Shown here piece by piece: positions 4,260-6,967 of a DNA stretch of 7,394 nt. The stretch lies in contig CAIQOG010000228.1 in NCBI GenBank assembly GCA_903873355.1, positions 1-7,394 of the forward strand, in the 5' to 3' direction. Within the stretch, counting starts at the first letter, position 1. Each line of letters begins with the position of its first letter. The translations under genes and the position numbers were made by a program. Origin of the DNA: an uncultured Bacteroidales bacterium (lineage in GTDB: Bacteria > Bacteroidota > Bacteroidia > Bacteroidales > Paludibacteraceae). The notes beneath the pieces were generated by a model. The model was not told the DNA's origin. It worked only from the letters and a program-made list of their open reading frames with translations, and made no database searches.

Positions 4260-4593
4260 AATCAGCTGATTAATAATTAGTCATTCCTACTTATCCTGAC
4301 TACTTACGATGGAAATGTTACATGAAGATGTTCTGAAATGAATCCGCAATAACTTCGACAAATATGGGGAAAATAAAACATTCTAACTCTATATTTTTAC
4401 CGGACAACATTATTTTTAATAAGGGCTCGGCAGAATTGTATATGATCAATAAATCAACACATTAGCTTAATTATGAAAGAATAAAAAAATGATTTGGTAG
4501 CCGGTAAAGAAAAAAGGCCAAAAAGTACAACAATACTAGACGTGGTAAATCTTAAATAAAGAATAACAACAAATTAGCATTACAATCTGTGGG
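4260..4593. other. Gene-free intergenic stretch
   Basis: This AT-rich stretch of about 330 bp lies between two divergent transcription units. It should hold the promoter of the minus-strand unit. It also contains a copy of CAATACTAGA at 4531-4540, which recurs between the regulator and cupin genes. No convincing small gene or RNA is seen. Confidence 0.5.
4359..4366 (-). promoter_or_regulatory. Possible -7 element for the minus-strand exported unit
   Basis: Read on the minus strand, CATATTTG matches the Bacteroidota -7 consensus TAnnTTTG at all but its first base. It lies about 100 bp upstream of the barrel-like gene. No clear -33 TTTG at the right spacing is seen, so this is a weak call. Confidence 0.2.
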
Positions 4594-4671
4594 TAACACG
4601 GGCTAAGCAAGGTGGGGTTTCCCCAGGTGCAAAGCCAAAAAAAAACCACCTAGCCTGGCCCGGAAACGTTA
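4594..4671. repeat. attC-like imperfect inverted-repeat element 3
   Basis: This is the clearest fold of the four elements. TAAC (4594-4597) pairs with GTTA (4668-4671). CGGGC (4599-4603) pairs with GCCCG (4658-4662). GC (4607-4608) pairs with GC (4653-4654), and AGGTGG (4610-4615) pairs with CCACCT (4646-4651), leaving only two mismatches in the main stem. The right arm has four more bases than the left between the outer boxes, exactly as in element 1, and both share AACACGGG on the left. The apical part contains GGGG-TTT-CCCC (4614-4624), which could form an alternative hairpin. It lies 89 bp upstream of the regulator gene. Confidence 0.6.
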
Positions 4672-4760
4672 TGGGAAAATCCACAAGAACAAAGTGTTGA
4701 AAAAATTGTTAAATGATTGAAAATGTATAGAAACTATTTCATTTAACTAAAAATTATCGA

Positions 4761-5861
4761 ATGCCTATATACATGGATCGTCATGACGTATCGAAATCTG
4801 TAACTGCCGAAAATGTTGCACACCTTCATAAGGAAGATCTGAAAATTCAGGAGCAATTTAACTGCCGCGGTTTAACGTATTGGTTTGATGACATTAAAAA
4901 AATAGCCTTTTGTTTAGTAGAGGCTCCTGACAAAGAATCAATACATAATATGCATAATTTTGCCCATGGAGAGGTACCTAATCATGTCCTTGAGGTAGAT
5001 GAAAATCTTGTTGAATCATTTCTGGGACGAATAAAAGATCCAGATAAATCGGCTTCCACTGATTTAAATATTATCAATGATACGGCTCAACGTACATTAA
5101 TGGCTATTCGGTTTAAAACTATTTCACTACAGGGTATTTATAATTCCCAATCACAAGCCAATATGCAGCAAGTGATTAATGTAATTGGTGATTCGCTACT
5201 AAAATATGAGGGACGGCTTACCGAATATAAAGAAGGATATCTTCTGATTTCATTTAAATCTGCCTATAAATCTGTAAAGTTTGCATTAGAGCTAGAACCC
5301 TTAATTACAGATAAAATTGCTTCTTTATACAATACAAATATTTACTTTAAAATTGGATTGGCTTCGGGTATGCCTGTTGCAGCTAACAAGACCTTTTTTG
5401 AAGATGCTATTAAATTGGCAAATCGACTTTGCTTTATTGATAATTCCAATATTGTAATGTCATCCGAAGTTCAGAATTCATTTATTACAGAAAACTTAAA
5501 CGCAACTTTCGAAAAAGACAAAATGCATGCCTTACCATTTTCAGATGAATCTTTTTTACATACGTTATTAGATTTTATCGAGAAAGAATGGCATAATTCT
5601 GAATTAAAAGTTGAGGATTTTGATATACCACTTGGAATGAGCAGAACACAAGTGTACCGAAAAGTAATGCTTCTAACAGGAAAATCACCCAACAGTTTTC
5701 TTAAGGAATATCGTTTAAATCGGGCGTTAGAAAGAATAAACAAAAACACCTTTTCCATTTCAGAAATTGCATACGATACAGGGTTTAACAGTTTATCCTA
5801 CTTTTCAAAGTGTTTTTACAGAAGATTTGATCTTTTACCAACCGAATATATAAAATCCTGA
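4761..5861 (+). CDS. DUF4242 / degenerate cyclase-like / AraC-type transcriptional regulator
   Basis: Three domains are visible in 366 residues. Residues 1-91 match DUF4242 (relatives include the nickel-binding SCO4226 protein): MPIYMDRHDV, then AHLHKEDLKIQEQF, LTYWFDD, IAFCLVEAPD and VLEVDENLVESFLGRI, with H8, H21, H23, H62, H65, H69 and H75. Residues about 112-241 resemble a class III adenylate/guanylate cyclase domain (FKIGLASGMPV, FFEDAIKLANRLC, IVMSSEVQ), but both catalytic metal-binding positions look lost: the first strand reads MAIRFKTIS, and the usual GDG is KEG at 157-159. Cyclase activity is therefore unlikely. Residues about 266-366 are a complete AraC-type DNA-binding domain with two helix-turn-helix units (MSRTQVYRKV; SISEIAYDTGFNSLSYFSKCFYRRF, up to TEYIKS). 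It probably controls the cupin and haemoglobin genes downstream. The ligand is unknown. The start at 4761 is fixed by the family's MPxxMDRHD opening. Confidence 0.85.
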   Translation: MPIYMDRHDVSKSVTAENVAHLHKEDLKIQEQFNCRGLTYWFDDIKKIAFCLVEAPDKESIHNMHNFAHGEVPNHVLEVDENLVESFLGRIKDPDKSASTDLNIINDTAQRTLMAIRFKTISLQGIYNSQSQANMQQVINVIGDSLLKYEGRLTEYKEGYLLISFKSAYKSVKFALELEPLITDKIASLYNTNIYFKIGLASGMPVAANKTFFEDAIKLANRLCFIDNSNIVMSSEVQNSFITENLNATFEKDKMHALPFSDESFLHTLLDFIEKEWHNSELKVEDFDIPLGMSRTQVYRKVMLLTGKSPNSFLKEYRLNRALERINKNTFSISEIAYDTGFNSLSYFSKCFYRRFDLLPTEYIKS

Positions 5862-5874
5862 TGCCTGACTCATT

Positions 5875-5898
5875 CAATACTAGAAATCTGTAGTATTG
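5875..5898. promoter_or_regulatory. Perfect 8-8-8 inverted repeat, candidate operator or weak terminator
   Basis: CAATACTA (5875-5882) and TAGTATTG (5891-5898) are exact reverse complements separated by eight bases. A further half-site AATACTA follows at 5912-5918. The repeat lies 13 bp after the regulator stop and upstream of the cupin gene. It lacks a T-run, so an operator for the AraC-type regulator is at least as likely as a terminator. AATACTA also occurs inside two coding regions, so the half-site alone is not specific. Confidence 0.45.
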
Positions 5899-5954
5899 AC
5901 CCAAAAGTTCGAATACTAAACCCAAATTTACTATCCATCAGTTTTTTTATGCTG

Positions 5955-5962
5955 TAGTTTTG
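5955..5962 (+). promoter_or_regulatory. -7 promoter element of the cupin gene
   Basis: TAGTTTTG is an exact match to the Bacteroidota -7 consensus TAnnTTTG, 43 bp upstream of the cupin ATG, so it would give a leader of roughly 35-40 bases. No good -33 TTTG lies at the usual spacing, which would fit a promoter that needs an activator. The nearby AATACTA sites are 37 bp and more upstream of this element. Confidence 0.45.
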
Positions 5963-6005: not shown

Positions 6006-6392
6006 ATGAAAATTGCAAAAGGAAACATAGATGTCAAAATGGAAATACCAGGTGCTGTAATCCGTCAGAAGACTGATTTTGGTGATGCAACAGGTTTAGG
6101 CAAGATTAGTGGTGAGTATTTCAGCCTTTCAGCAGGGGTGGATACTACTCCCCTATTTATGGGACTTGAAGGGAATTTGTGTCAATGCCCTCATTGGGGC
6201 TATCTTATTAGCGGTCAACTCACTACAACCGATGCTCAGGGTATCAAGGAAATTGTAATTGCGAACGATTTGTTTTACTGGCCGGCTGGGCATAATGTTA
6301 TGATCAATGCCAACGCAGAAATCGTGATGTTTAGCCCCCAGCATGAGCATACTCATGTTATCAATCACATGATTGAGAAAACTAAAACTTAA
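6006..6392 (+). CDS. Small cupin-domain protein with CxCPHWG motif and His-rich tail
   Basis: This 128-residue single-domain cytoplasmic cupin has its first motif around LFMGLEGNLCQCPHWGYLIS, with C59, C61 and H63, and its second around DLFYWPAGHNVMI (P93, G95, H96). I recall small cupins with the same CQCPHWGY core in many bacteria, usually of unknown substrate. The Cys and His residues are plausible metal ligands. The C-terminus carries H113-x-H115-x-H117 and then H121, a possible extra metal site not needed by the fold. The gene follows the regulator by 144 bp, with its own promoter-like element and an inverted repeat upstream, which suggests a regulated target rather than simple read-through. 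Function could be ligand binding, metal handling or an enzyme activity. None can be assigned from sequence alone. Confidence 0.8.
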   Translation: MKIAKGNIDVKMEIPGAVIRQKTDFGDATGLGKISGEYFSLSAGVDTTPLFMGLEGNLCQCPHWGYLISGQLTTTDAQGIKEIVIANDLFYWPAGHNVMINANAEIVMFSPQHEHTHVINHMIEKTKT

Positions 6393-6568: not shown

Positions 6569-6967
6569 ATGGCACAAGATAATGCAAGTATAGCTTCCGT
6601 AAGTCTTTATGAACGACTAGGAGGAGTTGAAGGAATTACATTAATAGTAGATGATGTAATAGAAGCACATATGAACAATCCGGTTATCAAAGACATTTTT
6701 ACACCCTACAAAGCTCAACCTGATCGATTGGCAGCAATTCGTAAGCATACCATTGACTTTTTTAGTGCAGGTAGTGGTGGCCCTGTTGAGTATAAAGGGC
6801 GTGATATGCCGGCAACTCATGAAGGCATGGGTATCAATGCCGAACAATACATGTGCGTTATGGATGATATTTTAAGCGTTTTGGAGGAACACAGCATAGA
6901 TGAAATATCAAAAAAGGATGTATTGGCAATTCTTTGGTCATTAAAAGGAATGATTATGGGTAAATAA
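6569..6967 (+). CDS. Truncated haemoglobin, group 1-like
   Basis: The 132-residue protein is close to the usual truncated-globin length. Family landmarks are SLYERLGGVEGI at the start (helix A/B), the glycine pair in AGSGGPVEYKGRDM (E-F region), and the proximal haem ligand H84 in ATHEGMGI. Truncated haemoglobins bind haem and handle O2, nitric oxide or related ligands. The B10 position, normally Tyr in a DDFYERV context, reads VDDVIEAH, so Ile31 replaces it. The distal pocket therefore probably lacks the usual hydrogen-bonding Tyr. It is the last gene of the regulator-cupin-haemoglobin module, 176 bp after the cupin gene, and is followed by a strong stem-loop. The leader is A/T-rich with no Shine-Dalgarno motif. 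Protection against nitrosative stress or a sensing role is inference. Confidence 0.9.
   Translation: MAQDNASIASVSLYERLGGVEGITLIVDDVIEAHMNNPVIKDIFTPYKAQPDRLAAIRKHTIDFFSAGSGGPVEYKGRDMPATHEGMGINAEQYMCVMDDILSVLEEHSIDEISKKDVLAILWSLKGMIMGK

Follow-up and report, generated by a model that had tools for sequence, protein, structure and literature searches.

The analyzed stretch of DNA, in the following called the window (7,394 nucleotides from an uncultured Bacteroidales bacterium), encodes a regulator that connects a DUF4242 domain, a domain with the fold of class III cyclases and an AraC-type DNA-binding domain. On balance, this protein is probably a local one-component activator of the AraC type with DUF4242 as input domain and the pseudo-cyclase as a module for dimer formation and signal transmission. 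Judged by its residue content the cyclase-fold domain appears to be catalytically dead, and a direct repeat together with a -7 element downstream of the gene forms a probable operator, which is the new element of this analysis. The loss of the catalytic residues and the predicted operator are both well supported computationally.

Domain structure of the regulator

The regulator gene and its parts are located in the window as follows.
4761..5861, plus strand: gene of the three-part regulator, 366 aa, assigned by domain profiles
4767..5033, plus strand: DUF4242 / SCO4226-like domain, residues 3-91 (PF14026, 59.5 bits), the probable input domain
5079..5534, plus strand: class III cyclase-fold domain, residues 107-258, predicted to be catalytically dead from its residues
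5109..5111, plus strand: codon of R117, which replaces the first metal-binding Asp (anchor R111+6)
5235..5237, plus strand: codon of G159, which replaces the second metal-binding Asp (gapless register G151-F165)
5412..5426, plus strand: helix K218 to R222, bearing the transition-state Asn and Arg in cyclases; Asn exchanged for Lys, Arg kept
5538..5858, plus strand: AraC-type DNA-binding domain, residues 260-366 (HTH_18, 66.1 bits)

A Pfam search as suggested in an earlier note on this DNA found both ends of the protein. The score of the N-terminal domain against PF14026 is above the cut-off of 28.5 bits, and the C-terminal domain was recognized by HTH_18 (cut-off 33.6) and by HTH_AraC (33.7 bits, cut-off 26.6), which places it in the AraC/XylS family. 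Its closest solved sequence match is 12aw, a hybrid two-component system protein (E 2.6e-21). The middle domain of the regulator was not seen with Pfam alone, and Pfam detects this domain in only 8 of 55 relatives, so that the suggested test on its own would have misled. Profile and fold comparisons demonstrated that the middle domain is homologous to class III cyclases and has the cyclase homology fold. The rows of the VIA-align comparison span mainly residues 92-271 of the regulator, and the fold of DUF4242 therefore rests on sequence.

The build proposed in the earlier note, DUF4242 plus a cyclase-like domain plus an AraC-type end, was thus confirmed by PF14026, the fold comparison and HTH_18. 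Its remark that the form with the AraC end was unfamiliar did not hold, since PF14026 and HTH_18 are both present in 118 of the 120 matches listed out of 2477 database matches for the group of the regulator (type 1). The same architecture was found in 118 of the 120 matches listed for a second lineage (type 2, seed L092), and the idea that it is rare was rejected. In one database entry, P0185, the protein carries the name AraC-like DNA-binding protein/class 3 adenylate cyclase. The parts of the regulator are already known and their combination is visible in databases; among the literature matches listed, no description of a DUF4242-cyclase-AraC protein was found by title or opening of the abstract.

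DUF4242 is the most conserved domain within type 1, and it matches the Streptomyces nickel-binding protein SCO4226 (4oi3) with an E value of 2.7e-5. SCO4226 has a homologous ferredoxin-fold domain, but it comprises 82 residues, is not fused to other domains and forms a dimer, and its Ni-1 ligands are Asp43, Ser46 and His76 (PMC4186839). Metal binding by DUF4242, as put forward in the earlier note, is unsupported for a site of this type, and SCO4226-like binding was rejected: Asp43 is kept, whereas Ser46 and His76 are absent from the regulator. Position 46 carries K or R in 120 of the 121 type-1 proteins, and I, V, L, M or T occupies positions 76-77, an assignment that is less sure because residues after 69 fall outside the direct alignment with SCO4226. 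The SCO4226 equivalog model NF033706 gave 38.7 bits, far below its cut-off of 125. The regulator family gives a clue to what DUF4242 does; in databases the domain often bears the name nickel-binding, though the SCO4226 site is not kept here.

Loss of the active site and relationship to intact enzymes

The comparison covered three groups, the two-domain DUF4242-cyclases, type 1 and type 2. The type-1 set of 121 consists of the query and the best 120 of the 2477 matches; a few of these are fragments, and the counts refer to the nearer members of the group. Class III cyclases are defined by two metal-binding Asp residues and by a transition-state Asn and Arg. The regulator has R117 and G159 at the metal positions and K218 in place of Asn, and it retains the Arg as R222. 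The first metal position lies six residues after R111, which is common to all three groups, and holds Asp in 121 of 121 two-domain relatives and in 2 of 121 type-1 proteins. The second Asp is kept in 14 of 121 type-1 proteins; both are absent in 105, one is kept in 16 and none has both. The exchange of both residues, already read from the window in the earlier note, was borne out in the regulator and in most of the sampled type-1 homologues, except that the second position had been placed one residue too early. The transition-state Asn is replaced by Lys in 106 of 121 type-1 proteins, and the Arg is retained in 108.

The two-domain relatives without an AraC end are found on rhizobial and Azospirillum plasmids (L117-L121; 23-29% identity to the regulator) and in the L091 group (L091, P0242-P0361). 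Where names are given, they read nickel-binding protein, DUF4242 domain-containing protein or class 3 adenylate cyclase. These proteins share the first two domains and their order with the regulator, as well as FLGRIxDP and R111, but the state of the catalytic residues is the opposite: the four examined residues are intact in 125 of 125 proteins (121/121 of the L091 group and 4/4 from plasmids) if Asn or Gln is accepted at the Asn position. Type 2, which has the AraC end, shows both Asp residues by alignment column in 89 of 121 proteins and all four catalytic residues in 12 of 121. Its second Asp was counted 106 times in 121 by MAFFT column and 56 times gap-free from G151, a count that depends on the alignment because of a one-residue insertion. 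By residue content, type 2 thus appears partly and type 1 fully decayed.

It is extremely improbable that type 1 provides one half of a heterodimeric active cyclase, comparable to the mammalian C2 domain and paired with an intact DUF4242-cyclase. Type 1 does keep the Arg and Thr of a C2-like half and lacks the Asp residues, and one genome (G008, of the Arenibacter locus L031) encodes both forms (L091). However, 7 of 8 genomes searched with PF14026 show no protein of two-domain length, which led us to reject this pairing as the general case; three of the eight contain a single DUF4242 protein, which has the three-part length, and the frequent Lys at the Asn position also argues against it.

A comparison of median pairwise identities (60 of 121 proteins sampled per group) gave 0.76 for DUF4242, 0.42 for the cyclase domain and 0.60 for the HTH in type 1, and 0.71 for DUF4242 and 0.70 for the cyclase domain in the two-domain L091 group. 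The type-1 cyclase domain therefore looks released from catalytic constraint, and DUF4242 does not. This bears on the question whether the pseudo-cyclase itself could be the sensor, with the metal half lost, the K218/R222 helix binding a nucleotide or an anion, and DUF4242 as an auxiliary part. Thr216 (110), Lys218 (106), Arg222 (108) and Cys224 (118) are kept in most of the 121 type-1 proteins though the rest drifts, and the conserved E214, T216, K218, R222 and C224 leave room for a ligand site in this domain. We nevertheless regard a sensing pseudo-cyclase as rather doubtful, because it is the least conserved of the three domains and because a stand-alone DUF4242 gene is present in 9 of the 76 operator-led clusters described below, which points to DUF4242 chemistry. 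The earlier note had suggested a catalytic fold reused for sensing or dimerization; the reuse is supported, but from the conservation we infer that sensing falls to DUF4242, which is under constraint, the cyclase fold being less constrained.

In a tree computed from 64 rows, one branch splits off all of type 1 and another all of type 2 (100/100). Type 1 clusters with the two-domain enzymes of the L091 group (98/96) and type 2 stands apart, which would mean two AraC fusions; a single origin of the fusion was not rejected (p-AU 0.255), the branches being long. A history that we put forward tentatively is that a second-messenger enzyme became a transcription factor, perhaps twice independently, by addition of the AraC domain and decay of the active site, and that it spread through the Bacteroidota together with an operator and a detoxification-like target module. 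If so, a signal once reported via a cyclic nucleotide would now be read directly at one promoter.

A probable operator and the genes behind it

The features downstream of the regulator gene are the following.
5896..5912, plus strand: candidate operator half-site 1, TTGACCCAAAAGTTCGA, from the weight matrix and the alignment with kin loci
5917..5933, plus strand: candidate operator half-site 2, TAAACCCAAATTTACTA, 21 bp after half-site 1
5955..5962, plus strand: -7 promoter element of the TAnnTTTG type, TAGTTTTG, at the fixed distance of the family (offset 61 from the matrix start)
6006..6392, plus strand: predicted target gene 1, a 128-aa cupin (cupA; AlphaFold2 pLDDT 93.5, cupin-fold matches)
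6569..6967, plus strand: probable target gene 2, truncated haemoglobin (PF01152, 30.7 bits, cut-off 21)

A single-sequence search of genome contigs found no relatives of the regulator. With a profile search 392 relatives were obtained, and the best 80 of these (79 from Bacteroidota, 1 from Ignavibacteriota) were used as loci. The conserved direct repeat was first seen in an alignment of the intergenic stretch of the window with the five nearest loci. Over 81 downstream stretches the consensus is TGAayyAAAATTac.....TTTGAAyyAAATGTag, two half-sites with a period of 21 bp. In a four-fold cross-validation, with folds not split by kinship, 72 of 81 held-out stretches scored above the 99.9th percentile of 810 dinucleotide shuffles. 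A scan of the whole loci on both strands (935,170 bases) yielded 76 matches above 16 bits, one in each of 76 of the 81 loci, a count that is optimistic because the matrix was trained on the scanned loci. All of them are on the strand of the regulator, at distances of -10 to +279 bp relative to the stop codon of a regulator copy. The matrix gave no match above 16 bits elsewhere in these loci, an absence that is unaffected by the training, and none in the reversed sequences. Five loci are without a site (L009, L029, L036, L038, L059). A conserved direct repeat, which may be a binding site of the kind found at target promoters of AraC/XylS regulators, is present in 76 of 81 loci.

Using a matrix built from 66 sites without the window and its kin L001-L005, the site at 5894 remained on top among both strands of the whole window with a modest 11.3 bits (next match 1.9 bits), and the equivalent place was on top in the five kin loci; L004 has in addition a 13.4-bit match on the minus strand. 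Within 24 genomes a pattern with at most 2 mismatches gave 35 matches, and a control pattern 5. The 23 matches with 0-1 mismatch all have a regulator copy in their cluster: 21 follow such a copy directly, one (G169:C2) precedes a DUF4242-regulator pair and one (G160:C33:93968) is about 1.4 kb away from a copy. The regulator therefore looks local. Three of the 12 two-mismatch matches lie next to a regulator, namely those in G156, at G160:C33:91380 and, behind a type-2 copy, in G001:C23; nine, including the one looked at (L195), are without explanation. The pattern was not found in 4 of the 24 genomes (G005, G158, G162, G170); three of their loci have matrix matches and a fourth has two.

At offset 61 the exact TAnnTTTG is present in 40 of 72 sites and a relaxed form in 58, with 5 more at offset 62. 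The repeat ends about 21 bp upstream of this -7 element, where a -33 element would sit. A -33-like TTTG/TTG does not rise above background: it occurs in 9 of 72 sites, and 9.2 would be expected by chance in these stretches. This would fit an activator that substitutes for the motif, though the lack of the motif alone does not tell an activator from a repressor. Scans for sigma-70 promoters and terminators gave nothing useful. Repression, in which the protein on the repeat would block the promoter until a ligand arrives, seems unlikely to us: a protein at this distance could also exclude the polymerase, but the repeat sits ahead of the -7 element and does not overlap it, no -33 motif rises above background, and direct repeats of the AraC type usually serve activation when they end at -35.

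In type-2 loci the type-1 matrix found weak matches (6.9-16.8 bits) in L163-L166 and L168. They fall on an apparent diverged repeat with the same period, TGCAACAAATGTTGC ... TTTGnAACAAATGA, seen by eye and without a shuffle control. In L163, L164, L165 and L166 (G227, G251, G310, G396) two different copies of the type-2 regulator stand in tandem. A type-1-like site of 38.4 bits in L167 is located after another ORF and not directly after the type-2 regulator of this locus. At L193:5502-7155 and L129:5367-7029 the operator precedes a stand-alone DUF4242 gene upstream of the regulator, which would then control its own operon.

The first gene after the operator in the 76 loci encodes a truncated haemoglobin (33), cupB (12), an FAD oxidase (10), cupA (9), DUF4242 (4), an MddA-like protein (3), or another or no product (5). 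Genes recurring downstream on the same strand are the truncated haemoglobin, the FAD oxidase, the 128-aa cupin, a second cupin (Cupin_7), the stand-alone DUF4242 and an MddA-like methyltransferase. The truncated haemoglobin belongs to the operator-led cluster of 36 and cupA to that of 17 of the 76 loci. The candidate proximal His of the haemoglobin, H84, is invariant in 13 aligned sequences. The FAD oxidase representative from L008 has EncM as its closest solved relative (E 2e-100); type-2 regulators in L123, L124 and L192 lie directly upstream of a gene of the FAD-oxidase family. The product of L072:7192-7941, a Pfam NnrU match, scores as methanethiol S-methyltransferase MddA (NF045656, 325 bits, cut-off 270), and the MddA-like family is the first after the operator in L062 and L080. 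This target hints at a link to thiols or sulfide, and the whole set of oxidase, haemoglobin, cupins and thiol methyltransferase suggests, as a lead, that the encoded proteins deal with a small reactive compound, which may be a thiol or sulfide.

That the regulator does not control its neighbors and that the repeat is an unrelated intergenic element is very improbable. Tight linkage alone can conserve sequence, but the repeat is kept with regulators down to 44% identity and ahead of six gene families, with a single repeat in each locus; second copies of the regulator in G002, G006, G163 and G169 are likewise accompanied by it, and the apparent repeat of the type-2 loci has the same period.

Elsewhere in the window, positions 754-1221 encode an Imm5-like putative immunity protein (PF21805, 126 bits). 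A BNR_2 (sialidase-like) match at 323-739 covers profile positions 177-276 of 277 only and may correspond to the 3' portion of a longer gene or of a broken one. Directly upstream of the regulator, 4560-4679 has a GC content of 46%, compared with 26-38% around it, and shows partly matching inverted arms by eye, which are absent from the computed repeat list; it may be an intergenic repeat.

Proposed mechanism and comparison with known systems

The reuse of a catalytic fold in a one-component regulator, as suggested in the earlier note, is supported by the cyclase fold, the lost residues and the conserved putative operator. For the ligand, the dimer, the direction of control and the role of the middle domain we infer the following scheme. 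DUF4242 would bind a small ligand. The pseudo-cyclase would make no cAMP or cGMP, but would join two chains and relay the ligand-induced change. Class III cyclases work as dimers, and a homodimer is the simplest model, in which two AraC domains would be placed on the two half-sites; the period of 21 bp corresponds to two helical turns and fits such an arrangement. On the repeat the AraC domains would recruit RNA polymerase to the cupin-haemoglobin promoter, which has no -33 motif above background, and elsewhere to promoters of the FAD oxidase, the second cupin, the stand-alone DUF4242 or the thiol methyltransferase. An enzyme converting a signal into a second messenger would thereby have become a regulator that passes the signal to DNA. 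To our knowledge, pseudoenzymes in transcription factors are rarely accompanied by intact relatives, intermediates in partial decay and a DNA target. In the present case the intact two-domain enzymes, type 2, type 1 and a precise candidate operator are all in hand, which makes the use of a dead cyclase fold in a regulator directly testable.

Known systems resemble the regulator in single parts. The protein 12aw is similar in its AraC domain, which in that family is joined to a sensor kinase, whereas the regulator joins it to DUF4242 and a pseudo-cyclase. When the whole model was compared with Foldseek, OaPAC and bPAC ranked first (E 2e-8 and weaker), and in both a small alpha/beta sensor, a BLUF light sensor, precedes the cyclase domain. 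In contrast to the regulator they are active enzymes without a DNA-binding domain, and the whole-chain rmsd of about 15 A indicates a different domain placement. The mycobacterial CHD+LuxR regulators (Rv0386, Rv1358, Rv2488c) are, as far as we know, without a DUF4242 domain. They combine a cyclase homology domain with a helix-turn-helix as the regulator does, but with a LuxR instead of an AraC end; cyclase activity was reported for Rv0386, and in the survey cited such proteins were restricted to Mycobacterium (PMC3466318). Among the literature consulted, these cyclase-plus-LuxR regulators of Mycobacterium are the nearest printed precedent for the regulator described here.
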